Source: a virus. From it: a stretch of DNA of 37,001 bases. The position numbers and the translations under genes are program-made. Positions 13,473 to 24,841 of the stretch are shown here, piece after piece; the stretch's first letter is position 1, and every line of letters begins with the position of its first letter. Location: positions 1 to 37,001 of the IMG/VR virus record IMGVR_UViG_3300044624_000832. The stretch is one strand, 5' to 3'. Below the pieces are notes generated by a model that did no database searches, was not told the origin of the DNA, and was given only the letters and a program-made list of their open reading frames with translations.

Positions 13473-13484
13473 TTTTATATTATA
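13473..13484 (-). promoter_or_regulatory. Leaderless-type promoter before the neck gene
   Basis: Minus-strand TATAAT (13484-13479) is followed by ATAAAA and then the ATG at 13472. With a start site about seven bases after the box, the first transcribed base would be the A of the ATG. No convincing -35 hexamer is seen and no Shine-Dalgarno sequence exists. The arrangement is nearly identical to that before the gene at 18193. Confidence 0.6.
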
Positions 13485-13990
13485 GGGCTAAATTTAGTAG
13501 ATTCATCGCCAAAAACAAAGGTAGTTATTGAGTACCGTTCTCCCCCTAAAACTGGAAACACTTGATGCTTAAGGTGAGCACTATGGATAACCATGCTTCC
13601 TGGCCTTGGGGTAACGCTTAGTCCAAGGTCTGGATATATCAGCTCTCCCCCAGTAAAGGTGTCATTTAAATAAATAGCAATACCAAAAACTATTGTTCTT
13701 GGGTCATCGGGGTTTCCGCCGTCTGTGTGCGGCCACATAAACTCTGAATCTTTTAGTTTTCGTAAATCACGAGAATAGACTATTGACTCTATATTAGTAA
13801 AAAATGTTTCAATATTTTTATACAGATTGTTCATTTTAACAAGTGACTCATCACTCATAGCTTTAACTGTATTTCCTACGTGCGTAGTATCCCAATCAAT
13901 ATCTAGTTGAGCCTCAGATACAAGGGTACTTCTCAGCTCTTCATCTAAAAACCCCTCAATTTCGTACACACCTTCTCCGTGCTTTATCAT
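13475..13990 (-). CDS. 2OG-Fe(II) oxygenase 7 (prolyl-4-hydroxylase-like)
   Basis: This is the shortest oxygenase of the cassette (171 residues). The Fe(II)-binding facial triad is visible: His88 and Asp90 in MWPHTDGG, and distal His142 in HLKHQVFP. Arg152 in GGERYSITTF is placed to bind the 2-oxoglutarate carboxylate. Between them IAIYLNDTFTGGELIYP is the typical P4H-like core strand. The family couples 2OG decarboxylation to hydroxylation, most often of prolyl residues. The substrate is unknown. It sits at the downstream end of the cassette, next to the SDR gene. Confidence 0.88.
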   Translation of the reverse strand: MIKHGEGVYEIEGFLDEELRSTLVSEAQLDIDWDTTHVGNTVKAMSDESLVKMNNLYKNIETFFTNIESIVYSRDLRKLKDSEFMWPHTDGGNPDDPRTIVFGIAIYLNDTFTGGELIYPDLGLSVTPRPGSMVIHSAHLKHQVFPVLGGERYSITTFVFGDESTKFSPII

Positions 13991-13992
13991 GA

Positions 13993-14661
13993 TTAGTTAT
14001 ACTTGCTACTGTTGATGTGGCAAATTTCAATTTCATTTATATTAACATGGCTTGGTAACGACCCTACCCAGTAGATAGCTTCTGCTAAATCCTCTGCAGT
14101 TAAGGCGTAGTCTCGTTTTTGCTCTTGGGTATCAATGGTTGCTGGACAAATTTCTGTAATTTTAATGCCAAATTGAGGAAACTCAAGCCTCATTGTGTCA
14201 ATTAGACCGCGCTCACCCCGCTTGGCATTTGTGTAATTCCCCCCACCGCGATACGGCACCTTACCGCCAAAAGAGGTAATAAAGACAATTGTTGGGGAGT
14301 CTGACCTCTCCATGCAGGGAACAAAAAGTTGAGAAAGATACATAGGGCCAGACACGTTTATATCGTAGGCTCGTCTAAAGTTATCCATGGTTTCATTGAT
14401 AATGTTAGTTGGGCTAGAGCCGCCACCAGCATTATTAACCAAAAGGTCTAGTGTTATATCTTTGTACTGCTCATAAAATCTCTCTATTGCTTTAGCGTCT
14501 GTTACGTCTAGGCTATATACCTCAACGTTGTCAGATACAAGCTCAGATACTTTGGAAAGGTTTCTTGAAACAGCAATAACTTTGTAACCATTTTCAGACA
14601 GGCGTTTTACTGTAGCTAACCCTACGCCTTTACTTGCTCCAGTAACAATTGCTGTTTTCAA
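13993..14661 (-). CDS. Short-chain dehydrogenase/reductase
   Basis: A 222-residue classical SDR with all landmarks: TGASKGVG (residues 7-14, NAD(P)-binding Gly loop), NNAG (76-79), Ser130 in VFITSFGG, and the catalytic YxxxK as Tyr143-Lys147 (NYTNAK). Arg33 in AVSRN suggests NADP(H) preference. The start is a TTG, since the Gly-rich loop begins six residues later and no ATG lies upstream in frame. The gene begins two bases after an oxygenase stop and ends two bases before another. The substrate is not deducible; oxidation or reduction of a sugar, alcohol or ketone is possible. Confidence 0.9.
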   Translation of the reverse strand: MKTAIVTGASKGVGLATVKRLSENGYKVIAVSRNLSKVSELVSDNVEVYSLDVTDAKAIERFYEQYKDITLDLLVNNAGGGSSPTNIINETMDNFRRAYDINVSGPMYLSQLFVPCMERSDSPTIVFITSFGGKVPYRGGGNYTNAKRGERGLIDTMRLEFPQFGIKITEICPATIDTQEQKRDYALTAEDLAEAIYWVGSLPSHVNINEIEICHINSSKYN

Positions 14662-14663
14662 CG

Positions 14664-15290
14664 TTAATGAATCCAGTGCTGAGGCACCATTATCTTTTCG
14701 CCACTCTTCACTAAGTGTGCTGTGTGATGGTATGGCGGAGATGGTGGGAAAACAATAATGCTTCCAGCTTTTGGTTTGATAGCAAAAGTGTAGCTTCCTT
14801 CTTGTTTTGCGATTTCAAAATCTGGGTTTGGACTAGCGTTTTGTAATACGCCATCTGGAGAAGCAATCGTAAAAGATAGCTCTCCGCCCTCATAATCATC
14901 GTTTAAGTACATAACAAAAGATACTTTAAGACGGCCATCGCCCTCTTGTTGGTCAAAGTGAGCACCCATATATGTGCCTGCCTTATACTTTTTAATTGGA
15001 TACATTGGAAACAGTTTAGGCTCATCTGTGATGCCGTGGGCTACCGCGTAATCTCTTGCTACATCATCAAAAGCCTTTTGTAATGTAGAGTAGATATAGG
15101 TCTTCTGAATGTCTGACGGGTCCGCAAAGATACTCTTATCTGTTCCATAGACATACGCCTCACCACTACACGCCATCCATTCGCCCCAAGGGTTTTCATT
15201 GTCCTGGTCAATTGCAGCAACAAGTTTCTTTGGGTCGTCAATTACGTTTGTGTAGTAGTAAACTTTTTCTTCAAGTATCTCTCTGTCCAT
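14664..15290 (-). CDS. 2OG-Fe(II) oxygenase 6 (prolyl-4-hydroxylase-like)
   Basis: A 208-residue protein with His111 and Asp113 in MGAHFDQQ, the core VMYLNDDYEGGELSF, and a distal His cluster (PYHHTAH, with His192 the likely ligand) followed by KSGEKIMV, where Lys199 replaces the usual Arg for 2OG. About 25 residues are inserted after ELSF compared with the other cassette oxygenases. A good Shine-Dalgarno (GGAG) precedes the ATG. It shares the fold and core motif with its neighbours but is clearly diverged, suggesting a different substrate. Confidence 0.88.
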   Translation of the reverse strand: MDREILEEKVYYYTNVIDDPKKLVAAIDQDNENPWGEWMACSGEAYVYGTDKSIFADPSDIQKTYIYSTLQKAFDDVARDYAVAHGITDEPKLFPMYPIKKYKAGTYMGAHFDQQEGDGRLKVSFVMYLNDDYEGGELSFTIASPDGVLQNASPNPDFEIAKQEGSYTFAIKPKAGSIIVFPPSPPYHHTAHLVKSGEKIMVPQHWIH

Positions 15291-15301
15291 TTTGTGTCTC
15301 C

Positions 15302-15961
15302 TTAGTACTTATTTTTTTTATAGTGGTCTTTTTCTTTAATGAACCCAACAAGAACATACCTTATTGGTCCATCCCCTACGTGCTTGACCCCGTGCTCATA
15401 CTCTTCGTTCCCTGGAAAAAATAACATAGTTCCTGGCTTGGGCTTTAGCTGGATGTCAAGGTTTGGAAAAAATAATTCGCCATCTGCGTAGTCATCATTA
15501 ATATACACAATCGTAGCGTATTTTATAGACGGGTCTGTTCTTTGGTCAGTATGCGCTTTTAACTCTACTCCTGGTTGCATTCTTTGAATTGTTGCAAAAC
15601 CACTTAAAATTAATTCTGGGTCGGCTTTTACCACCATTGAGTTTAAACCATCGTATAGTGGTCTATATATCTCATGATGTAATATGTTAAAGTTTTTATC
15701 TTTCCAATTTTGAGTGATTTCAAACTTGCCTTCAGCAACTAAATTATCAACGTCGTCTCTGCCAAATTTTTCCATGCAAAAACTTGCTAAGTTTGAGTAG
15801 TACTCTACTTCCCAATCTTTTTGAGATGTACCATTTATAATGTCCCAAAAGGTAGTTATTTGGTCTTCTGATAAAAAGTTTTCAACAGAGAACAGCTCTG
15901 GAGTAATATCCTTAACTACATACCCGCTATCTATTAACTGTTGTTTAAATGGCTCAATCAT
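15302..15961 (-). CDS. 2OG-Fe(II) oxygenase 5 (prolyl-4-hydroxylase-like)
   Basis: A 219-residue protein. The triad is His137 and Asp139 in LKAHTDQR and His190 in EYEHGVKHV; Arg201 in PIRYVLVGF fits the 2OG site. YINDDYADGELFFP is the central core. Substrate recognition probably lies in the N-terminal helical 120 residues, which are not alike among the cassette members. The ATG follows the previous gene's TAA with no gap, so expression is coupled. The Lys-rich C-terminus (DHYKKNKY) is short. Confidence 0.88.
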   Translation of the reverse strand: MIEPFKQQLIDSGYVVKDITPELFSVENFLSEDQITTFWDIINGTSQKDWEVEYYSNLASFCMEKFGRDDVDNLVAEGKFEITQNWKDKNFNILHHEIYRPLYDGLNSMVVKADPELILSGFATIQRMQPGVELKAHTDQRTDPSIKYATIVYINDDYADGELFFPNLDIQLKPKPGTMLFFPGNEEYEHGVKHVGDGPIRYVLVGFIKEKDHYKKNKY

Positions 15962-16708
15962 TTACAGCTCGTCTGCTTTGTACTTATTTCCAGCCGCGTC
16001 CAGCTTCCAACCCTGCTTAAGCAGCTCTTGCCACTCTGCTCTTTCAATTTCTTGTTGCGCTCTAGTGGCCTTCATCTCTTCAGCCCACGCATCTCTTAAT
16101 TCCTGTGGGTAATCCGACTCTTCTCTATCATCCCAGAAAGACCCAATGGTGTATCTGACCCCGCCTGTTATAAGAGATACTTCGTGCATATTGTTAAACC
16201 CGCCGTCAAATACAGCAAGCATTCCAACTTCTGGTTTAATCTCTATGTTTTGTGCTGGGAACCGTAAAAGTCCCCCATCAAAATCATCGTTAAGGTATAG
16301 AAAGCCTGCGTAGCGGCTTCTTGTAAAAGCGCCTGAGTTACCTTCAGCGTCTGTATTGTCAGAGTGAACTCTTGCGTACGCTCCTGGCTCCCACTTTTGT
16401 GTGTGGTATCCAATTTTACAAATTGTTTTTGGGTCAAGGTCATGTACGGAAGCAATTGCTTCAGGCATTGCCTTTTCAATATCTGAAAATATGGTTGGAG
16501 ATAGGCCAGCGTCAATGACCTCTTGGTCGTTGTCTTGTGGCAAAACTGAAGAATAGGACTCGTAAAATGAGATTGGCATCCAAGAAATTGCTCCACTGGC
16601 TGCTTGAGCATCTAATGCTTGAATCATCTTTGTGCAGTCGTCTTTGTTTATAAAGTTTTCATAAACAACTATGTCTTTTGTTATTCGTCGTTTGTTTGCT
16701 AGGTTCAT
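15962..16708 (-). CDS. 2OG-Fe(II) oxygenase 4 with helical C-terminal tail
   Basis: This 248-residue protein has His115 and Asp117 in YARVHSDNTD, the core AGFLYLNDDFDGGLLRFP, distal His175 in NNMHEVS, and Arg185 in GGVRYTIGSFW. After the catalytic domain there is a roughly 50-residue helical, charged tail (EMKATRAQQEIERAEW) not seen in the other cassette oxygenases, which could mediate oligomerisation or partner binding. GGAG precedes the ATG. All catalytic residues are intact, so activity is expected. Confidence 0.9.
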   Translation of the reverse strand: MNLANKRRITKDIVVYENFINKDDCTKMIQALDAQAASGAISWMPISFYESYSSVLPQDNDQEVIDAGLSPTIFSDIEKAMPEAIASVHDLDPKTICKIGYHTQKWEPGAYARVHSDNTDAEGNSGAFTRSRYAGFLYLNDDFDGGLLRFPAQNIEIKPEVGMLAVFDGGFNNMHEVSLITGGVRYTIGSFWDDREESDYPQELRDAWAEEMKATRAQQEIERAEWQELLKQGWKLDAAGNKYKADEL

Positions 16709-16723
16709 TGTGCTTTACTCCGT

Positions 16724-17497
16724 CTAGTTATTTATAAGGGATTTATCTCCAGCAATAAGCTTTTCTATTTCCTGTTGAACAAGGGCGTACTCTTCATCAA
16801 ACACTTCTGGAGTTCTGCCCTCTCCCATAGCGGCAGGAGTTCCTTTAGCTATTAAATCTTCTTTTAGTGTCTTTTCAATATCGTAGTTTAATACTGTGCA
16901 TTGAAACCAGTTGGCAACATACCCATCTCTATCAATAAGGTACTTTTCAAAGTTTCCGCCCTGCATTGCTCCATTAGCTACAGGTTGGTTTAGCCAAGGT
17001 GACAAGTACCCATCTCTATCTGGAATACCAAGCTCTTTTTGCTTTGCAGCGTACGCAAGCATTTGGTTTGATATCTCATTATATAGTTCGTGAGTTTCTT
17101 TTCGTGGTTGACCTAGGCCGTTTACAGAGCTATCTCCCTTGTGTGGACTTAGCTCAGTGGCACTCTTATTTGGGTTTGACGACACCATCTCTGAGAACTT
17201 AAATGTGGTTCCATAAACTTCTTGGCCATATTCTTGTGAGTCTAGGCCACAGGTAATGCCTTCAGACCACTTACCCTTAGTGACTCCAGGGCCACAGAAG
17301 TCATTGGTAGGGATAGCAATAACTTGGAAATCATCTCCACCGTATTTATCTTGAAGCCATTGGAGAACTTCCATTTGATTAGCGTTACCACAGCCTACGG
17401 TTGTATTAGCCAATAGGGTGACTTTACCCTTAAATTGACTTAAGAAATCAGGGGTGCCCTCAGCCGAGTTAAGCGGGATATCGTAAATTGATTTCAT
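16724..17497 (-). CDS. Glutathione-peroxidase-like protein
   Basis: The N-terminal 70 residues match the glutathione peroxidase fold: FKGKVTLLANTTVGCGNANQ with peroxidatic Cys36, then QVIAIPTNDFCGP. The closing GNFEKYLIDRDGYVANWF equals the family WNF-K-LIDRDG motif. Two of the four classical catalytic-site residues differ: Gln becomes Asp66 and Trp becomes Gly181, while Asn182 remains. The protein (257 residues) is longer than the usual 160-180 because of an insert of about 90 residues, so it may use another reductant or act as a peroxiredoxin-like enzyme. There is no Shine-Dalgarno; a TACAAT box lies seven bases before the ATG. Confidence 0.85.
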   Translation of the reverse strand: MKSIYDIPLNSAEGTPDFLSQFKGKVTLLANTTVGCGNANQMEVLQWLQDKYGGDDFQVIAIPTNDFCGPGVTKGKWSEGITCGLDSQEYGQEVYGTTFKFSEMVSSNPNKSATELSPHKGDSSVNGLGQPRKETHELYNEISNQMLAYAAKQKELGIPDRDGYLSPWLNQPVANGAMQGGNFEKYLIDRDGYVANWFQCTVLNYDIEKTLKEDLIAKGTPAAMGEGRTPEVFDEEYALVQQEIEKLIAGDKSLINN

Positions 17498-17510
17498 ATG
17501 TTTTATTGTA
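17498..17510 (-). promoter_or_regulatory. Leaderless-type promoter before the peroxidase gene
   Basis: Minus-strand TACAAT (17510-17505) is followed by AAAACAT and the ATG at 17497. Spacing of seven bases and lack of any purine-rich RBS suggest transcription from or next to the start codon. Confidence 0.5.
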
Positions 17511-17518
17511 CCCCGTCA

Positions 17519-18193
17519 TTACGGCTTTCTATCCCCTGTATGCGCTGTAATTTCCCAAAAGAAAGGGCACGTAAATCTTAAGCCGCTTTTGATTTCAGTA
17601 ACCCCATGGATATAGTTTTTATCCCCAGGGAAGAAGTAAGCGGCACCTTTTTTAGGTTTAAACTGCACGCCTTGTAGGGGGAAGTAGAGTTCTCCGCCCT
17701 CATAATCATCGTTTAAGTAAAACAAACTTGATAGGTCATAGTTTGGGAAGTCGTTGGGTGTTCCAGCGTCAGGGCCTTCATGAAGCTCTTTATCAGCATG
17801 GGGGTTTTGAAATTGTCCAGGAAGCCATTTAACAATGGTCGTACCCGTTGGGATAACCTCTACCTTATAAAACTCTTCAATAATTGGCCTTAGTCTTTGA
17901 AATAGGCCTGCAATTATTGGGGATATCTTTGGGTCATTTTTATCCAGGGTGGGCTGAGTAGCAACTCTATCTTTCCAATAGTCTGAGTCATATGTAACGG
18001 TACCGTTCTCATTCGTATGGCTTTCGGTAACATCCCAAATGGTTAAAGATTTGGCGGCTTTTTCTAAAAACTCTATTTCCTCTTGAGTCATAAAGTTTTC
18101 AAGCTCAACAATCATGTCCTTGCTATCCCCAAACCAGCCTGATGGGGTTATAGATGGTGTTCTTTGAACTACCTTGTATGAGCTTTTATCCAT
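17519..18193 (-). CDS. 2OG-Fe(II) oxygenase 3 (prolyl-4-hydroxylase-like)
   Basis: A 224-residue enzyme with His132 and Asp134 in QNPHADKE, the core SLFYLNDDYEGGELYFP, His196 in NYIHGVTE and Arg206 in GLRFTCPFFW. VKWLPGQFQNPHAD is the typical strand before the first ligand. The N-terminal 50 residues include the usual IVELENFMTQEEIEFL opening of P4H-like phage enzymes. It is the last member of the alternating oxygenase/DUF6065-like series. No Shine-Dalgarno is seen; TACAATATAAAA runs directly into the ATG. Confidence 0.9.
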   Translation of the reverse strand: MDKSSYKVVQRTPSITPSGWFGDSKDMIVELENFMTQEEIEFLEKAAKSLTIWDVTESHTNENGTVTYDSDYWKDRVATQPTLDKNDPKISPIIAGLFQRLRPIIEEFYKVEVIPTGTTIVKWLPGQFQNPHADKELHEGPDAGTPNDFPNYDLSSLFYLNDDYEGGELYFPLQGVQFKPKKGAAYFFPGDKNYIHGVTEIKSGLRFTCPFFWEITAHTGDRKP

Positions 18194-18205
18194 TTTTATA
18201 TTGTA
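18194..18205 (-). promoter_or_regulatory. Leaderless-type promoter before oxygenase 3
   Basis: Minus-strand TACAAT (18205-18200) is followed by ATAAAA and then the ATG at 18193, identical in spacing and nearly identical in sequence to the site before the neck gene at 13472 (14 of 15 bases through the ATG). No RBS is present. Confidence 0.6.
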
Positions 18206-18912
18206 TCCCTTTTCGTCTTATCTATGACCCCTAATTTTAGTGCCTTTACCTCATGAGAACCTAAGGGCTCTTCTTTTTCATTTACAGCGTCTCTGTACCA
18301 GTCTGTCCATTTTCCAGCAGAGTTTATCTTTTGTGCAGCCTCCCCATAGGACATATTTGCGTTTAATCTTTTGCTGCCTGGGTCTTGGTACTCAACAATT
18401 TCAATATTTGTTCCGTTTAAACTTGACAAAGATATAGGGATAATTGTGGCAACGGGAGTTCCTGCTTTAATTACGACTCGTTTATTTGCAACCTTGGCTT
18501 TAATAGCTAAAGGCAAGGGGTTGTCATAAAAAGAAGTACTAATTAAAGACGACATTGTCTCAAACTCATCGCTAAAATAATTTACGGGATTAATGGTAAA
18601 AATACTGACCGCTTCATCTGTTCTAAAGACTAGCCCGGTGTTTAAACTTATAGAGGATTGACCCCTACCAGAATAAGCACCTTCTGGACTAAACACTTGA
18701 ACACGGTCTGGTGTTTGGTCGTTTACCCCATCCCAAATAAACTCAATATCTTCTACACAAGACAAACTCCAGCCAATTACATTTGACTGGGTTACTGGAA
18801 AGCATCTATAGGCATGATTCTCTGATGTTGCGTCCATCCAGTCTCTTTTAATTGACATAGGCTGAACATCAAATAAAGCCCCATGTGTTTTTTCAACTGA
18901 TATATTAAACAT
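18196..18912 (-). CDS. DUF6065-like protein B
   Basis: A 238-residue protein whose parts recall DUF6065: SNVIGWSLSCVEDIEFIWDG near the N-terminus, FRTDEAVSIFTINPVNYF in the middle, then VVIKAGTPVATIIPISL. The fold looks beta-rich, possibly cupin- or jelly-roll-like. It has the same layout as the 255-residue gene at 19579 and lies between two oxygenases, with its start overlapping the upstream stop by one base. The family's biochemical function is unknown to me. The assignment is from remembered family pattern, not alignment. Confidence 0.55.
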   Translation of the reverse strand: MFNISVEKTHGALFDVQPMSIKRDWMDATSENHAYRCFPVTQSNVIGWSLSCVEDIEFIWDGVNDQTPDRVQVFSPEGAYSGRGQSSISLNTGLVFRTDEAVSIFTINPVNYFSDEFETMSSLISTSFYDNPLPLAIKAKVANKRVVIKAGTPVATIIPISLSSLNGTNIEIVEYQDPGSKRLNANMSYGEAAQKINSAGKWTDWYRDAVNEKEEPLGSHEVKALKLGVIDKTKRDTI

Positions 18913-19568
18913 TAATCTGCGTCTGCACTATACATTTCTGGCGTGTGAAACTTTTTGCTGTAATCAAGCATTGTAACAATAGAGTACTTAGTTCCAGAAG
19001 TTACTGGCATTGCTTGATGCGGGTACATAAAGTTTGATGGAAAAATAAACAGGTCTCCAGCCTCTGGCTTAACCTTTAAGCCTTGTAATCTAAAATAAAG
19101 CTCTCCACCCTCGTAGTCATCATTGACGTATGAAACTAAAGACACAGTACAGTTGTAGGAAAACCCGTGGTCGTGGTGCTCCATAAAGTGTTGGCCAGGG
19201 CCGTATTTAATAAAGTTAAACGCTTCCCAGTACTTTAAGTTATTAATGTTATACATTCTTGAATAATCTTGAACTGCAGGCAGCTTAACATCGTATAGGT
19301 CTTGCCACAAAGCCTGTAGGTTTAAACTAACCTGACTCTTGTCATGTTCAATGTCTGTTTTTTTAAACTTAAAGTCGTTGCAGTCTCTATACTCTGGCAT
19401 AAGTTGTTTATAGCCAACATACGCAGGTTGCCACGCGTACCCAGTCGTATCTCCCTCTGGCTTAAGGTTTGCCTCAATTCTATTTACAACATCAATCTCT
19501 TTATTAATTACGCCCTTATAACGGAATATCCCATTACCTAGGTCTTCTTTACCCGTCCATGTAGACAT
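18912..19568 (-). CDS. 2OG-Fe(II) oxygenase 2 (paralogue of oxygenase 1)
   Basis: I start at the ATG at 19568 (MSTWTGKED), which has GGGAG six bases upstream, giving 218 residues; a start at 19670 would overlap the preceding gene by 90 bases. Ligands are His131 and Asp133 in MEHHDHGF, and His184 in YPHQAMP; Lys194 (GTKYSIV) takes the usual Arg place. The stretch EAFNFIKYGPGQHF and YNCTVS are nearly the same as in oxygenase 1, so the two are close paralogues. Both neighbours are DUF6065-like genes. Confidence 0.9.
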   Translation of the reverse strand: MSTWTGKEDLGNGIFRYKGVINKEIDVVNRIEANLKPEGDTTGYAWQPAYVGYKQLMPEYRDCNDFKFKKTDIEHDKSQVSLNLQALWQDLYDVKLPAVQDYSRMYNINNLKYWEAFNFIKYGPGQHFMEHHDHGFSYNCTVSLVSYVNDDYEGGELYFRLQGLKVKPEAGDLFIFPSNFMYPHQAMPVTSGTKYSIVTMLDYSKKFHTPEMYSADAD

Positions 19569-19578
19569 TATATTCTCC

Positions 19579-20346
19579 CTATTTGTACTCTCGTCTGGAC
19601 CAAACTTTATTTTGATATACCCCGCCATCAGGCTGTCGGTAAAACTGCATGTTATTAACCATTTTATCATACATCGTGGATTGGTCTAAAATTTCTACCT
19701 TGTGTTCCCAGTTTTCTCGTTTAAAAGGAAGAACCTGCATGCAGGGAGTTCCCGCCGGTAATGTGCCTTCCCAACCTTCCGAAATAAAAAATGGAAAGGT
19801 TCCAAGTAAGTGCACCTTATCAGCGTCTACAACCCCAGTGGTATTTAAAAATGGTAAATCAAATCTATTCATTGGAGTCATAAACAACGCGCTGTACCCA
19901 TCTGGAAGTTCTAACCCCCAGGGAATACTCCAAGCAAAATGATTTTGATAGTACCCGTTCGGATGCTCAAATTGAGGCATAGGAGGGCGCGGAGTACAAA
20001 AATCTTTATAATTAGGGTCATCAATCTTTACATCTATGATTCCCTGGCTATTTTTATAAAAAACTAAATCGCACGGTGTTTTAAATACGTATCCAGTTGT
20101 AAAAGCGTCCATAATTGCGGGACACGCTTTCCATGTAGGAATCTTTCCGTAGTCATCTGTTGTGCCTTCTTTAGGGAACGGGCAAACCTCTTTTGGCGCT
20201 TTGTAGTACTCCCCGTTTGGCATTTTTGCAAATCTATCTGCGTTTTTATACCAGTCTGGGATTTCTGTTTGTGTTGGGGCAGGAGAAGAAATGTCTCCTT
20301 TTTTTATCCAAGGTCTAAAGGGTCTAAATATGGCAGTCAAAGGCAT
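19579..20346 (-). CDS. DUF6065-like protein A
   Basis: A 255-residue protein with FAWSIPWGLELPDGYSALF, MNRFDLPFLNTTGVVD and LPAGTPCMQVLPFKRENW. This order (a polar-strand start, a Pro/Asn loop, then Gly-Thr-Pro before a Pro-Phe strand) matches the DUF6065 pattern and gene B in this cassette. The N-terminus has a cluster of Pro, Phe and Arg residues. Oxygenase 1 stops at its start codon, so the genes are coupled. Function is unknown; pairing with oxygenases suggests a shared pathway. Confidence 0.55.
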   Translation of the reverse strand: MPLTAIFRPFRPWIKKGDISSPAPTQTEIPDWYKNADRFAKMPNGEYYKAPKEVCPFPKEGTTDDYGKIPTWKACPAIMDAFTTGYVFKTPCDLVFYKNSQGIIDVKIDDPNYKDFCTPRPPMPQFEHPNGYYQNHFAWSIPWGLELPDGYSALFMTPMNRFDLPFLNTTGVVDADKVHLLGTFPFFISEGWEGTLPAGTPCMQVLPFKRENWEHKVEILDQSTMYDKMVNNMQFYRQPDGGVYQNKVWSRREYK

Positions 20347-21053
20347 TATTTGTGCCCTAACTCGTTAATATCTGTCATAACAACGACGCAATACTTTGTC
20401 CCTGACACCATTGGAAGGGAGGCATGCTCGTAGATGTAATTTGAGGGGAAGACCGCAATGTCTCCTACTTTTGGCTTATAAACTAAGTTATCAAGCCTTG
20501 GGAACTTTATATCCCCGCCCTCGTAGTCGTCGTTAATGTAAATAACAGCAGACACTGTGCAGTTATACGCTGGGCCGTGGTCTGCATGAATATTAAAGTG
20601 GGTGCCGCTTCCCTCGTACTTTACAAAGTTAAAGGCCTCGTAATATACAACATTAATACCCCAGTATCTAGCGTAGTCGTCTATGCAGTATTTAAGCTTT
20701 TGGTATATCTCCTCATGCAGGTCTATAAGTTCAGCGTTTGATTCATCTTTAGGGCCAAGGTTTTCCTGCTTATACTTAAAATCTACGCAGTCTCTTGCCC
20801 GCTTAACTGGGACATCAGACTGCGTAACTTGCGCCTCTGACCACTTGTATTTGTTGCCTGGTGATAGGTTGGATTCAAGAGTGTTAATGTATCTTGCAGC
20901 ATCTTCACTGGAAAAAGTGTTTTGGTAAACGTGTAGTCCCAAACCTAAATTTTTAACACTTACCTTATCGTTTAGAGCTCTCTCAGGAACTCTATTTGAC
21001 GCGGTCTCTGACCTATCTTTTGTAAACCAATGGTTTTCGTTTTCGTTATGCAT
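20346..21053 (-). CDS. 2OG-Fe(II) oxygenase 1 (prolyl-4-hydroxylase-like)
   Basis: The first oxygenase of the cassette, 235 residues. Ligands are His156 and Asp158 (NIHADHG) and His210 (YEHASLP); Lys220 in GTKYCVV stands where most relatives use Arg. YINDDYEGGDIKFPRL is the core. EAFNFVKYEGSGTHF and AYNCTVS are shared with oxygenase 2. A 40-residue polar N-terminal extension precedes the domain. Lys in place of Arg occurs in some active 2OG enzymes, so activity is still plausible. The gene follows the DUF6171-like gene by 18 bases. Confidence 0.9.
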   Translation of the reverse strand: MHNENENHWFTKDRSETASNRVPERALNDKVSVKNLGLGLHVYQNTFSSEDAARYINTLESNLSPGNKYKWSEAQVTQSDVPVKRARDCVDFKYKQENLGPKDESNAELIDLHEEIYQKLKYCIDDYARYWGINVVYYEAFNFVKYEGSGTHFNIHADHGPAYNCTVSAVIYINDDYEGGDIKFPRLDNLVYKPKVGDIAVFPSNYIYEHASLPMVSGTKYCVVVMTDINELGHK

Positions 21054-21071: not shown

Positions 21072-21317
21072 CTAATTAAGTGGCTGTCTTTTCCATTTTC
21101 CAATAGGGCATTCTGCATCTGCAAGCGTTGTTTTTAACGGCATAATGCACCCGCATAGTTTACAGCTTTTTGTAATTTTAATGAGGTTTTCACAAGACAT
21201 GCATTCATCAAGTCTTTTTTTAATAATCTCCTGGTCATCAAGCTTTTTACCAGAATCAATCAAGTGCCACGGCCTTGAGTCTCCAAGAGAGGCCTTCCAG
21301 TCATTCCATTTAGACAT
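21072..21317 (-). CDS. DUF6171-like small zinc protein
   Basis: An 81-residue protein with CMSCENLIKITKSCKLCGC followed by KTTLADAECPIGKW. The CxxC...CxxCxC...CPIGKW pattern is that of DUF6171, common in aquatic phages, and the six Cys could bind one or two zinc ions. Its function is unknown. It stands at the head of the oxygenase cassette, three bases after the WDG-motif gene, so it may be expressed with it. Confidence 0.75.
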   Translation of the reverse strand: MSKWNDWKASLGDSRPWHLIDSGKKLDDQEIIKKRLDECMSCENLIKITKSCKLCGCIMPLKTTLADAECPIGKWKRQPLN

Positions 21318-21793: not shown

Positions 21794-22687
21794 TTAGAAA
21801 GCGCACGAACAACCGCACCCTGCACCGAAGTCATACAAACAGAAATAGCAATCTGACCCACATCCACCAAAGGACGGGAAAGATGGCGGGAAGAACGGCG
21901 GGAAGAACGGCGGGAAGAATGGGAAGAATGGTGGGAAGAAAGGAGGAAAGAAAGGAAAGAACGGGAAGAACGGCGGGAAGAATGGCGGAAAGAATGGGAA
22001 GAATGGGAAGAACGGTGGGAAAAACGGCGGGAAGAATGGGAAAAACGGAGGAAAGAATGGTGGGAAGAACGGAGCAGTAGTATTAACGGTGCCTGTCACG
22101 GCTGCATCTGAGGTACCTACCGAAGTAATAGCCACAATAGTGTAGGTCTGTGAGCCTGGGGAGGTAGCGGAAGGGGTGTTATCTGTAGCGTCATAGGATA
22201 CCGCTGAGCCCGAAATACCAGAGTAAGTCGTTCCGTCAGAACCAGTAATTGTATAAGAGGTAATTGCGCTACCGCCGTTGGCTCCAGCAGTCCAACTAAT
22301 TCTGTTAACGTTTGCAGAAAGTGCAGCGCCAGAAACTGATTGTGGTGCTTGTGGCCTTGTTGTAATAGCAATTGCAGAAGAGGCAGTAGAGGCCGCAGAA
22401 GTTCCTGCAGCATTTGTAGCCGTTACTGTAAATGTTACAGATGCGCTAACAGGAATGCCAGTAACTGTAATTGGAGATGATGACCCGCTTGCTGTTTGGC
22501 CTGAACTTGCTGTTACTGTAAAAGAGGTGGCTGCAGGAGAAAGTGCTGGTAAAGAAAATGAAACAACCGCTGCTCCATTGTTATAGGCTCTGCCTGTTCC
22601 AACGTTTGAAGCGGATACGCCTGTAGGAGCTAATGGCTCTAAAAAGTCGTTTGAAGCCTGTGACTTTTTTCCAACTCTTTTACCCAT
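21794..22687 (-). CDS. Fibronectin-III protein with Phe/Pro repeat tail
   Basis: A 297-residue protein in three parts. Residues about 15-110 and 110-205 are two fibronectin type III-like domains (APTGVSASNVGTGRAYN ... and QAPQSVSGAALS ... ISWTAGANGGSAITSYTIT). Residues 206-268 consist only of Pro and Phe, with 17 Phe-Phe pairs separated by one or two Pro. The last 29 residues are Gly/Cys-rich with six Cys (GCGSDCYFCLYDFGAGC). FN3 domains are common on phage surfaces, and the gene follows the fibre genes, so a virion appendage is likely. The repeat region is beyond any domain I know. RBS AGGAAAATAA-ATG is acceptable. Confidence 0.75.
   Translation of the reverse strand: MGKRVGKKSQASNDFLEPLAPTGVSASNVGTGRAYNNGAAVVSFSLPALSPAATSFTVTASSGQTASGSSSPITVTGIPVSASVTFTVTATNAAGTSAASTASSAIAITTRPQAPQSVSGAALSANVNRISWTAGANGGSAITSYTITGSDGTTYSGISGSAVSYDATDNTPSATSPGSQTYTIVAITSVGTSDAAVTGTVNTTAPFFPPFFPPFFPFFPPFFPPFFPFFPFFPPFFPPFFPFFPFFPPFFPPFFPFFPPFFPPFFPPSFPSFGGCGSDCYFCLYDFGAGCGCSCAF
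21884..22072 (-). repeat. Tandem FF-P/PP coding repeat
   Basis: The DNA is an irregular tandem array of purine-rich units on the plus strand (AACGGCGGGAAG and AATGGGAAG type) that translates on the minus strand into 63 residues of FFPP and FFP units. Third-position changes occur between units while the protein stays purely Pro/Phe, indicating selection on the amino-acid sequence. Such arrays can change length by slippage. Confidence 0.9.
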
Positions 22688-22708: not shown

Positions 22709-24841
22709 TTAAGCCGTCAAGTCGCCAAAGACAACCCAGGTATTTTCTGCTCTTTTGAAAAGGGTGCACGAAGACCATTGGGTTCTCAGTTTTAATCCTG
22801 GTGTTGCGTTTACTGTTACTCCAGCAGCTCCAGCAATTGTTACCTGTCCTGTAGAAGTTTGAAGGATATCAATTGATGTTCCTACTGGGAAAGCTACTGC
22901 TGAGTTTAATGGGATAGTAATTGTTGTAGCACTTGCATTGGCAACTTCAATTAAGTCATCTCTCTCAGTTAGAGAAGAAAGTGTGTATGAAGCTGTCTTT
23001 TGAATAATAGGGGTACGTGATGGAACACCTTCAAGGGCCTGTGTTCCATCTGAAAACACAATTCCTGCGGCAGGAAGCGTTACAGTTCCTGTAAATGTTG
23101 GTGAGGCTAGAGGCGCCTTATCTCCTAGAGCAGCGGTAAGGCCTGAAATCTTAGACTGGGCAATTTCTGCTGATGCATTAATATCCCCGTCAACAATTGT
23201 TCCATCTGCAATCTTTGCTGATGTAATTGCCCCATCTGCAATAGAGAATGTATTACCAGTTAGTGTAAGTGCGCTACCTGCTAAGTATGTTCCAGCACCT
23301 GAGAACTGAACGAACTCTATAGCATCGGTTCCAATAGTTGCAGGGGTATTAATTTGTACCCACCCACTATTAGCCTGAGTGGTACCTTGGTCTACGAATA
23401 CGAAGTCACCAGAATCAACTTCTGCTGCTGTATCAAAATCTGTAGCACGAGTTGGTGCTCCATTTGGCTGAACAATGTAAATACCATTTTGAGATGCTGT
23501 ACTTTGATTCTTTACAAGAATTCTGTCGTTATGTGCAAGAGTTACTCCATCAAGAATATCGCCTGCCTCAACTTGACTGCTAAGGTTTACATTTTCAGTT
23601 GTTGCTGCTTTTACAGATGGATGAACATGAAGCCCTTCTACTGCAGAATCTACATATGCCTTAGTTGCTGCATGAAGAGATTCTGTTGGTGCACCTGATA
23701 GTGTAATTGCCCCTGTCATTGTTCCGCCAGCTAAAGCAAGTTTTGCTGCAAGGTCGGTAGTAAGGTCTGCAACCTTGGACTGGGCAATCGCGGCTGAGGC
23801 GTTAATGTCAGCATTTACAATTGTTCCATCTGCAATCTTTGCAGAAGTTACAGCGCTATCTGCAATTTTTCCTTCGGTGACTGCTAAATCTGCAATTTTC
23901 CCAGTAGTAACTGCAAGTCCACCAATTTCGTTAGTTCCAACTGAGTCATCACCCATCATTGACTGTGAAATTGTGTTTGCAGGAAGGACAACTGTTCCTG
24001 TGAAAGTCGGGCTAGCCAATGGTGCGTAAGTTGTAGCAGCAGTTGCAGAGGCAAGTTTGTTGTCTAAAGCTGTTTGTGTTGCTGTAGAGATGGGCTTGTT
24101 TGCATCTGAGGTGTTATCTACGTTTCCTAGTCCTACATCTGATTTAACTAGTCCAGCGGGGGTAGTAATTGTTTTATTTGTAAGAGTTTGAGTTCCAGTT
24201 GTTGTTACAAGAAGACTGGTATCTACTATCCCGTGTACATCTAAAGTGTCTGTACTGTGTGTACCAAGTGATGTAGAGACTGCGTTAGCGGCTGCTGTAT
24301 CAGCATATGATTTAGTTGCAAGGTCTGCTGTATCTGCAATTCCATGCACAGAAGTTGTGTCTGAGTTATGTGTTGAAACTGAGGTATCTGCATATGTCTT
24401 TGTAGCAAGTGTTGAAGTGTCTTCAATTCCATGCACTGAGGTTGTGTCTGAGTTATGCGTTCCTATTTCAGTTGTTACGTGCCCTTGTGTAGCTAGTGTT
24501 CCTGTTGCATCTGGAAGAGTCAGTGTTCTATCTGCTGTAGGGTCTGCTACTACAAGAGTAGTTTCAAAATCATTTGCGGTTGCGCCTTCAAATATAAGGT
24601 TGACACCAGTACCCAAAGACACTGTGCCAGTAAAACTAGGGTTAGCAATCGTAGCGTAGAGGCTTGCTGCAGCTGTTGGAGTTAGGGTGATATAAGGTAG
24701 AGAAGCCCAAGCTGTAAGACTGTCTCCAACTTTAAGCTTCTTACTGTCAGTTTCTACACCAACTTCACCTTCAAGAAGAATTGGGTTTGAAGCAGTCCAC
24801 TCAGCCGCAGTTCCTCTGCGTAGTAGGATATTAACTGCCAT
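22709..24841 (-). CDS. Long tail fibre / tropism protein
   Basis: A 710-residue fibre-like protein. Residues 1-52 (ILLRRGTAAEWTASNPILLE, then KLKVGDSLTAWASLPYI) match the N-terminal domain seen in many fibre and major-tropism-determinant-like proteins. The shaft has tandem repeats: four THNSDTTSVHGI-type units (about residues 125-205), paired GAITSAKIADGTIV/DGDINASA units, and a globular module with DRILVKNQSTASQNGIYIV (about residues 400-520). The C-terminus is a beta-rich head. A GTVTLPA-type repeat occurs three times. It would bind host receptors. The 94-residue gene before it overlaps by one base. Confidence 0.85.
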   Translation of the reverse strand: MAVNILLRRGTAAEWTASNPILLEGEVGVETDSKKLKVGDSLTAWASLPYITLTPTAAASLYATIANPSFTGTVSLGTGVNLIFEGATANDFETTLVVADPTADRTLTLPDATGTLATQGHVTTEIGTHNSDTTSVHGIEDTSTLATKTYADTSVSTHNSDTTSVHGIADTADLATKSYADTAAANAVSTSLGTHSTDTLDVHGIVDTSLLVTTTGTQTLTNKTITTPAGLVKSDVGLGNVDNTSDANKPISTATQTALDNKLASATAATTYAPLASPTFTGTVVLPANTISQSMMGDDSVGTNEIGGLAVTTGKIADLAVTEGKIADSAVTSAKIADGTIVNADINASAAIAQSKVADLTTDLAAKLALAGGTMTGAITLSGAPTESLHAATKAYVDSAVEGLHVHPSVKAATTENVNLSSQVEAGDILDGVTLAHNDRILVKNQSTASQNGIYIVQPNGAPTRATDFDTAAEVDSGDFVFVDQGTTQANSGWVQINTPATIGTDAIEFVQFSGAGTYLAGSALTLTGNTFSIADGAITSAKIADGTIVDGDINASAEIAQSKISGLTAALGDKAPLASPTFTGTVTLPAAGIVFSDGTQALEGVPSRTPIIQKTASYTLSSLTERDDLIEVANASATTITIPLNSAVAFPVGTSIDILQTSTGQVTIAGAAGVTVNATPGLKLRTQWSSCTLFKRAENTWVVFGDLTA

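Follow-up and report, generated by a model that had tools for sequence, protein, structure and literature searches.

Why does a tailed phage carry seven different 2-oxoglutarate (2OG)-Fe(II) oxygenases side by side among its structural genes, and what do these enzymes modify? We address this question in the window, a 37,001-base IMG/VR record of a lake virus (IMGVR_UViG_3300044624_000832) that is apparently a piece of a larger genome, in which the oxygenase genes (ox1 to ox7) form a cassette with genes for a short-chain dehydrogenase/reductase (SDR), a glutathione-peroxidase-like (GPx-like) protein and two DUF6065-type proteins. From profile searches, structure models and related loci, we infer, with a probability of roughly 55%, that the cassette serves to modify a virion protein and that its enzymes would hydroxylate the Phe/Pro stalk of a phage tail adhesin, the chemistry and the substrate being deduced indirectly. 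Aquatic phages commonly carry 2OG oxygenases as "auxiliary" genes, and the viral use of prolyl 4-hydroxylase (P4H) has been called cryptic (PMC9301287). With the stalk protein, which contains an array of FFP repeats, viral prolyl hydroxylases gain a concrete candidate substrate, and the question becomes testable.

Family, active sites and lineages of the oxygenases

A first-pass annotation had described seven separate oxygenase genes, each with an intact HxD...H metal triad, and our results bear this out. In a Pfam scan, all seven open reading frames (ORFs) pass the gathering score of PF13640 (2OG-FeII_Oxy_3; 34.7-55.1 bits against 27), and each also matches PHROG 61, "2OG-Fe(II) oxygenase". 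Alignment reveals the HxD motif, the distal His and a downstream R/K (the basic 2OG ligand) in 7/7. These positions are also stable over long distances: H165, D167, H218 and K228 of ox6 are unchanged across 39 relatives, and H132, D134, H196 and R206 of ox5 across 32, in both cases down to about 35% identity. Pairwise identity among the seven is 18-29%, with the single exception of ox6 and ox7 (41%). In a tree with their relatives and cyanophage proteins, the enzymes form seven separate old lineages, kept in order in related phages and with ox6/ox7 as the sole sister pair, and a fresh tandem duplication is rejected as their origin; as this tree was built by a quick method and has many long branches, its deep branching order is unsure. 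The ORF listed for ox6 shares 92 bp with the gene upstream of it, and its first 28 residues have low confidence in the structure model, so translation probably starts at the ATG at 19568.

The ox6 model (predicted local distance difference test, pLDDT, 85.7) has a double-stranded beta-helix fold, which we state for this model only, and matches prolyl hydroxylases in Foldseek with an E-value of 1e-10. Its top 50 matches in the PDB are almost all prolyl hydroxylases, led by a Pseudomonas (P. putida) P4H bound to EF-Tu and including an algal P4H with (Ser-Pro)5, PHD2, PBCV-1 vCPH and human C-P4H-II. At the level of sequence profiles, ox6 is nearest to a bacterial (B. anthracis) P4H and then to LH3, and the best match of ox5 is collagen prolyl 3-hydroxylase 1 (1.6e-8). 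Taken together, these relatives suggest that the cassette enzymes are of the peptidyl prolyl-hydroxylase type. Collagen-like GxY repeats were considered as their substrate and rejected, since among 29 window proteins checked the portal alone has such triplets, three in a row.

The FFP-array protein and its place beside the cassette

Upstream of ox7, beyond two small genes, is a gene whose product combines an FN3-like N-terminal part, an (FFP/FFPP)n array of 68 residues and a tip with six Cys. We name the N-terminal part "FN3-like" because the window copy stays below the PF00041 cut-off (22.6 bits against 25) while three relatives reach it (L162, 37.4; L093, 28.1; L099, 25.0). Almost all related loci that cover this position have an array gene, with 5-40 repeats, and the median array holds 25 prolines (165 distinct arrays). 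The repeat units are FFP (3470), YFP (286), FYP (4) and YYP (1), with FF or YF preceding Pro in 99.9%, and the Pro codons are mixed (CCA 2677, CCG 1149, CCT 596, CCC 87). Given this strict residue pattern and this mixture of codons, the array is conserved at the protein level while its DNA drifts. A literature search found no paper mentioning FFP arrays in phages.

The tips that follow the array are hypervariable and fall into 39 clusters at 60% identity. Thirty of these contain Cys, and in 30/30 the Cys number is even (2, 4, 6, 8 or 10), an outcome with a coin-flip chance of about 1 in 10^9, to be read with the clusters not being fully independent. The even counts point to tips held by disulfides, and through these to exposure outside the cell. 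In three loci (L162:3068-4387, L093:632-1936 and L265:1-3294) the Cys-rich tip is replaced by a Hint/intein-like one that could be self-processing, a call based on a sub-threshold PF13403 match in L162 and made by eye in the other two. In 126 of 149 cases, the gene immediately preceding the array gene is a homologue of the window's tail-fibre gene. We take the array protein to be a putative tail-tip or fibre-associated adhesin, presumably located in the virion. FFP arrays also occur inside fibre-like proteins of 900-1100 residues in other phages (L244, L246, L265 and L339), some of whose contigs have no oxygenases.

The array protein is a likely substrate because the oxygenase set sits right behind its gene across related and unrelated viruses. 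Nearly all the relatives are metagenomic fragments, and the oxygenase search profile was derived from the window's own proteins, so far relatives may be missed. In a first set of loci with 507 oxygenase ORFs, most cassette-bearing loci carry 6-8 of them, in the same order in many contigs. IMG/VR was also scanned, blind to oxygenases, for the DNA pattern of FFPPFFPPFFP, the result being a sample of matches listed. Among the matches listed, 70 array ORFs are followed by 3 kb or more of downstream sequence, and 57 of these 70 have an oxygenase within 3 kb; it lies downstream of the array in 57/57 of these listed cases and on the same strand in 52, at a median distance of 290 bp. An oxygenase is that close for 0/813 ORFs of array-less loci related by their major capsid protein (MCP) and for 44/478 ORFs in another phage group, so background oxygenase rates differ between phages. 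The pattern had 17 matches in 84,980 bacterial genomes, and bacterial FFP systems were set aside: four of the matches (L359, L363, L370 and L371) resemble phage contigs in metagenome-assembled genomes (MAGs) and the remaining ones are probably chance. These four are array/oxygenase or array/fibre loci binned into MAGs of Verrucomicrobiales, Gammaproteobacteria and Chitinophagaceae, and are possible hints to hosts.

The association was also examined in longer records and on a tree of capsid proteins. Among 50 long records, at least four PF13640 genes are found in 34 of the 42 with an array and in 0/8 without one; many of the 42 were picked for their array or cassette, so these counts are a description and no random sample. 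On an MCP tree of 33 loci, 25 have neither array nor cassette, 8 have both and none is discordant; an independent-pairs test on this tree is low in power, with one supported pair. Stronger evidence comes from very diverged loci, in which the adjacency persists down to about 35% identity, even where the genes are rearranged or the oxygenase lies on the opposite strand. As the most diverged loci retain mainly ox5, ox6 and DUF6065, these are taken as the core of the cassette.

A proposed role for the cassette

Based on these observations, we propose that the phage makes a fibre-tip adhesin in which a long (Phe-Phe-Pro/Phe-Phe-Pro-Pro)n stalk joins an FN3-like base to a hypervariable, disulfide-held tip. 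The co-directional oxygenases encoded downstream would hydroxylate the stalk prolines during virion assembly, and possibly the flanking aromatics as well, which could explain why several enzymes are retained. Hydroxylation makes collagen and extensins soluble and stiff; here it would turn a very hydrophobic repeat into a more soluble and rigid stalk, able to carry the variable tip to the host. The SDR, the peroxidase-like and the DUF6065 proteins may contribute auxiliary oxidation, disulfide chemistry or a scaffold. The earlier suggestion of a dedicated modification pathway thus stands as far as a conserved cassette of prolyl-hydroxylase-type enzymes is concerned; it had left the target unchosen (virion protein, host surface or small molecule) and had overlooked a likely one, the FFP-repeat protein upstream.

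Several points weigh against this proposal. The structure-based match to prolyl hydroxylases covers one of the seven oxygenases (ox6), and a single simple repeat would hardly seem to need as many as seven enzymes. To our knowledge, the FFP array matches no known P4H motif (X-Pro-Gly, Ser-Pro or PAPK). Among the matches listed, 13 of the 70 array ORFs have no oxygenase nearby, and four array-bearing records of 31-62 kb, possibly fragments, have no PF13640 gene (G005, G032, G033 and G047). In addition, the pair of array and cassette changes only about three times on the MCP tree, so that the two may often be found together largely because they were transferred together as neighbours.

The same enzymes could be peptidyl hydroxylases aimed at other proteins, such as the neighbouring tail fibres or host EF-Tu or ribosomal proteins, with the array protein as a mere neighbour. 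This is a possible but unlikely explanation. It agrees with the EF-Tu-bound P4H that heads the Foldseek matches of ox6, with the tail-fibre genes that adjoin the array gene and with the array genes that lack oxygenases; on the other hand, the one-sided order of array and cassette is fixed even where other neighbours change, and enzymes directed at host proteins need not sit behind a fibre gene.

Returning to hydroxylation of the stalk, a broader idea is more tentative and, in our judgement, falls somewhat short of even odds: that this is a new type of adhesin, spread across diverse aquatic phages, with hypervariable disulfide tips and a Phe/Pro stalk hydroxylated at Pro and aromatics by up to about nine diverged prolyl-hydroxylase-like enzymes. 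If the stalk is indeed the substrate, many genes at present classed as metabolic would instead encode enzymes of adhesin maturation. No paper linking prolyl hydroxylases to phage tail fibres came up in our literature search.

Accessory genes, phage context and known systems

The features of the region are collected in Table 1. On the minus strand, the window runs through terminase, portal, scaffold, MCP, virion/fibre-like proteins, the region reported here, sheath, tube, a tape-measure-like protein and baseplate; with its terminase, portal, MCP, sheath, tube and baseplate genes, the phage is contractile-tailed. The MCP is 70-71% identical to that of Streptomyces phage BRock (Borockvirus) and its kin, the close relatives being IMG/VR contigs, and the host would be a freshwater actinobacterium.

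Table 1. Positions in the window of the cassette, the FFP-array gene and adjoining genes, with the matches behind each assignment.
Feature	Position	Strand	Evidence
ox1, 2OG-Fe(II) oxygenase (short)	13475-13990	minus	PF13640 34.7 bits
SDR	13993-14661	minus	PF00106 139.6 bits, 1e-40
ox2, 2OG-Fe(II) oxygenase	14664-15290	minus	PF13640 46.7 bits
ox3, 2OG-Fe(II) oxygenase	15302-15961	minus	PF13640 42.8 bits
ox4, 2OG-Fe(II) oxygenase	15962-16708	minus	PF13640 34.7 bits
GPx-like protein	16724-17497	minus	PF00255 35.8 bits vs 27, 6e-9
ox5, 2OG-Fe(II) oxygenase, core member	17519-18193	minus	PF13640 36.4 bits
DUF6065 protein a (DUF6065a)	18196-18912	minus	PF19541 90.4 bits vs cut-off 26.6, 2e-25
ox6, 2OG-Fe(II) oxygenase, core member	18912-19670 (as listed)	minus	PF13640 55.1 bits
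DUF6065-like protein b	19579-20346	minus	phrog_7084 (2e-35) and profile alignment to DUF6065a
ox7, 2OG-Fe(II) oxygenase, sister of ox6	20346-21053	minus	PF13640 40.2 bits
Small CxxC protein (phrog_13558), in many loci located between the array gene and the cassette	21072-21317	minus	
FFP-array protein, 297 aa, proposed substrate	21794-22687	minus	Translation; FN3 match below cut-off; array/tip statistics
Pro/Phe array, 68 residues, Pro codons CCG/CCA/CCT mixed	21869-22072	minus	
Cys-rich C-terminal tip, six Cys	21797-21868	minus	
Tail-fibre-like virion protein	22709-24841	minus	

The SDR, peroxidase-like and two DUF6065-type genes named in the first-pass annotation are real, the second DUF6065-like protein being recognized through phrog_7084. 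The catalytic Cys of the GPx-like protein, read by eye, lies in a VGCGNA segment. The place given to the peroxidase in a common pathway does not hold as a cassette-specific trait, and the GPx-like protein was rejected as a cassette marker: homologues at 66-73% stand alone in other phages (L199-L236), and in some contigs (e.g. the one behind L208 and L262) a GPx-like homologue is found away from a cassette that itself has no GPx. The two DUF6065 proteins are homologous by profile comparison (probability 97.7), which makes them paralogues. The DUF6065a model (pLDDT 90.2) has a predicted dUTPase-like beta fold of moderate similarity (Foldseek best E 4e-5, template modelling (TM) score 0.3-0.4 by query). 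In the profile alignment, the position of the GVxD motif reads GVVD in protein b and LIST in DUF6065a; as b keeps the motif and a does not, we call neither a dUTPase. DUF6065 was also dismissed as a general partner of oxygenases, since halovirus HF2 has a phrog_7084-like gene near its tail genes (L374:11872-12756) in a genome without a PF13640 gene. No paper mentioning DUF6065 was found in the literature search.

These accessory genes bear on the idea that the cassette makes or decorates a nucleotide, a sugar or a small molecule (e.g. a DNA base or a glycan) by means of the SDR and the dUTPase-like DUF6065. We hold this to be improbable. The fold of DUF6065a, the SDR and peroxidase-like enzymes and weak, sub-threshold Tet_JBP matches of ox1 and ox5 in the Pfam scan would fit such a role; within the cassette the scan found neither a glycosyltransferase or kinase nor any gene for nucleotide modification, the dUTPase similarity is the moderate one given above, and the modelled oxygenase, ox6, is structurally nearest to prolyl hydroxylases.

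The premise that phages often carry one or two such oxygenases proved an underestimate. In nine marine myophages the number of PF13640 genes per genome ranges from 3 to 13, with 4-13 in cyanophages, and 24 2OG oxygenases have been published for cyanophage S-SCSM1 (PMC9602691), so seven in one phage is not unprecedented and is less exceptional than had been held. Roles proposed in the literature for phage 2OG oxygenases are in host metabolism, the nitrogen response or DNA repair (PMC9602691, PMC3037559), and those of S-SCSM1 have been read as host metabolic reprogramming (PMC9602691). Another explanation for the window, to which we give very little credence, follows the published view of cyanophages rich in 2OG oxygenases (PMC3037559, PMC9602691): the genes would be auxiliary and would shift host 2OG levels, energy metabolism or the response to nitrogen. 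A bulk 2OG sink is an ill fit for seven diverged lineages with conserved active sites that lie among tail genes and are linked to one structural gene, and the closest structures act on proteins.

Compared with the cassette described here, S-SCSM1 (MK867354.2) is alike in its many diverged 2OG oxygenases, of which a 9-kb stretch around tail-fibre genes holds seven annotated ones, and differs in having no FFP array and no DUF6065/SDR/GPx set in the stretch read; 18 sampled cyanophage oxygenases mostly branch apart from those of the window in our tree. Amid these seven clustered oxygenases of S-SCSM1, a short tail fibre (L376:4081-5346) contains a low-complexity insert of about 230 residues of the RQPRNFRQPR type, a possible parallel to the FFP array. 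Such RQP-type arrays were considered as a second, cyanophage test and, being present in S-SCSM1 and not in the fibres of S-H9-1, are only a lead. In cyanophage S-T4 (L380), a tail-fibre C-terminus has His/Asn-rich repeats (NHGHPVGGGGAHGHN) a few genes from 2OG oxygenases. Streptomyces phage BRock resembles the window in its MCP (70% identical) and in its head-tail gene order, but its 112 kb contain neither a PF13640 gene nor an FFP array.

Among characterized enzymes, the bacterial P4Hs (B. anthracis, 3itq/5hv0; P. putida, 4iw3, which acts on EF-Tu) are the best sequence-profile and fold relatives of ox6, although they share only about 17-18% identity with the phage enzyme. The closest solved collagen-modifying relatives are collagen prolyl 3-hydroxylase 1 (8k0e) for the ox5 profile and the lysyl hydroxylase LH3 (8zgc) for that of ox6; in contrast to their substrates, the window proteins checked have no GxY collagen repeat apart from the short portal run. 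PBCV-1 vCPH (5c5t) is a viral P4H-type enzyme and a structural match to ox6, and the repeats of PBCV-1 are of the PAPK type. 4-Hydroxyproline has been documented in PBCV-1 viral proteins (Eriksson 1999, cited in PMC9301287). PBCV-1 is a eukaryotic giant virus with a single enzyme, whereas the window holds a multi-enzyme cassette in a tailed phage.

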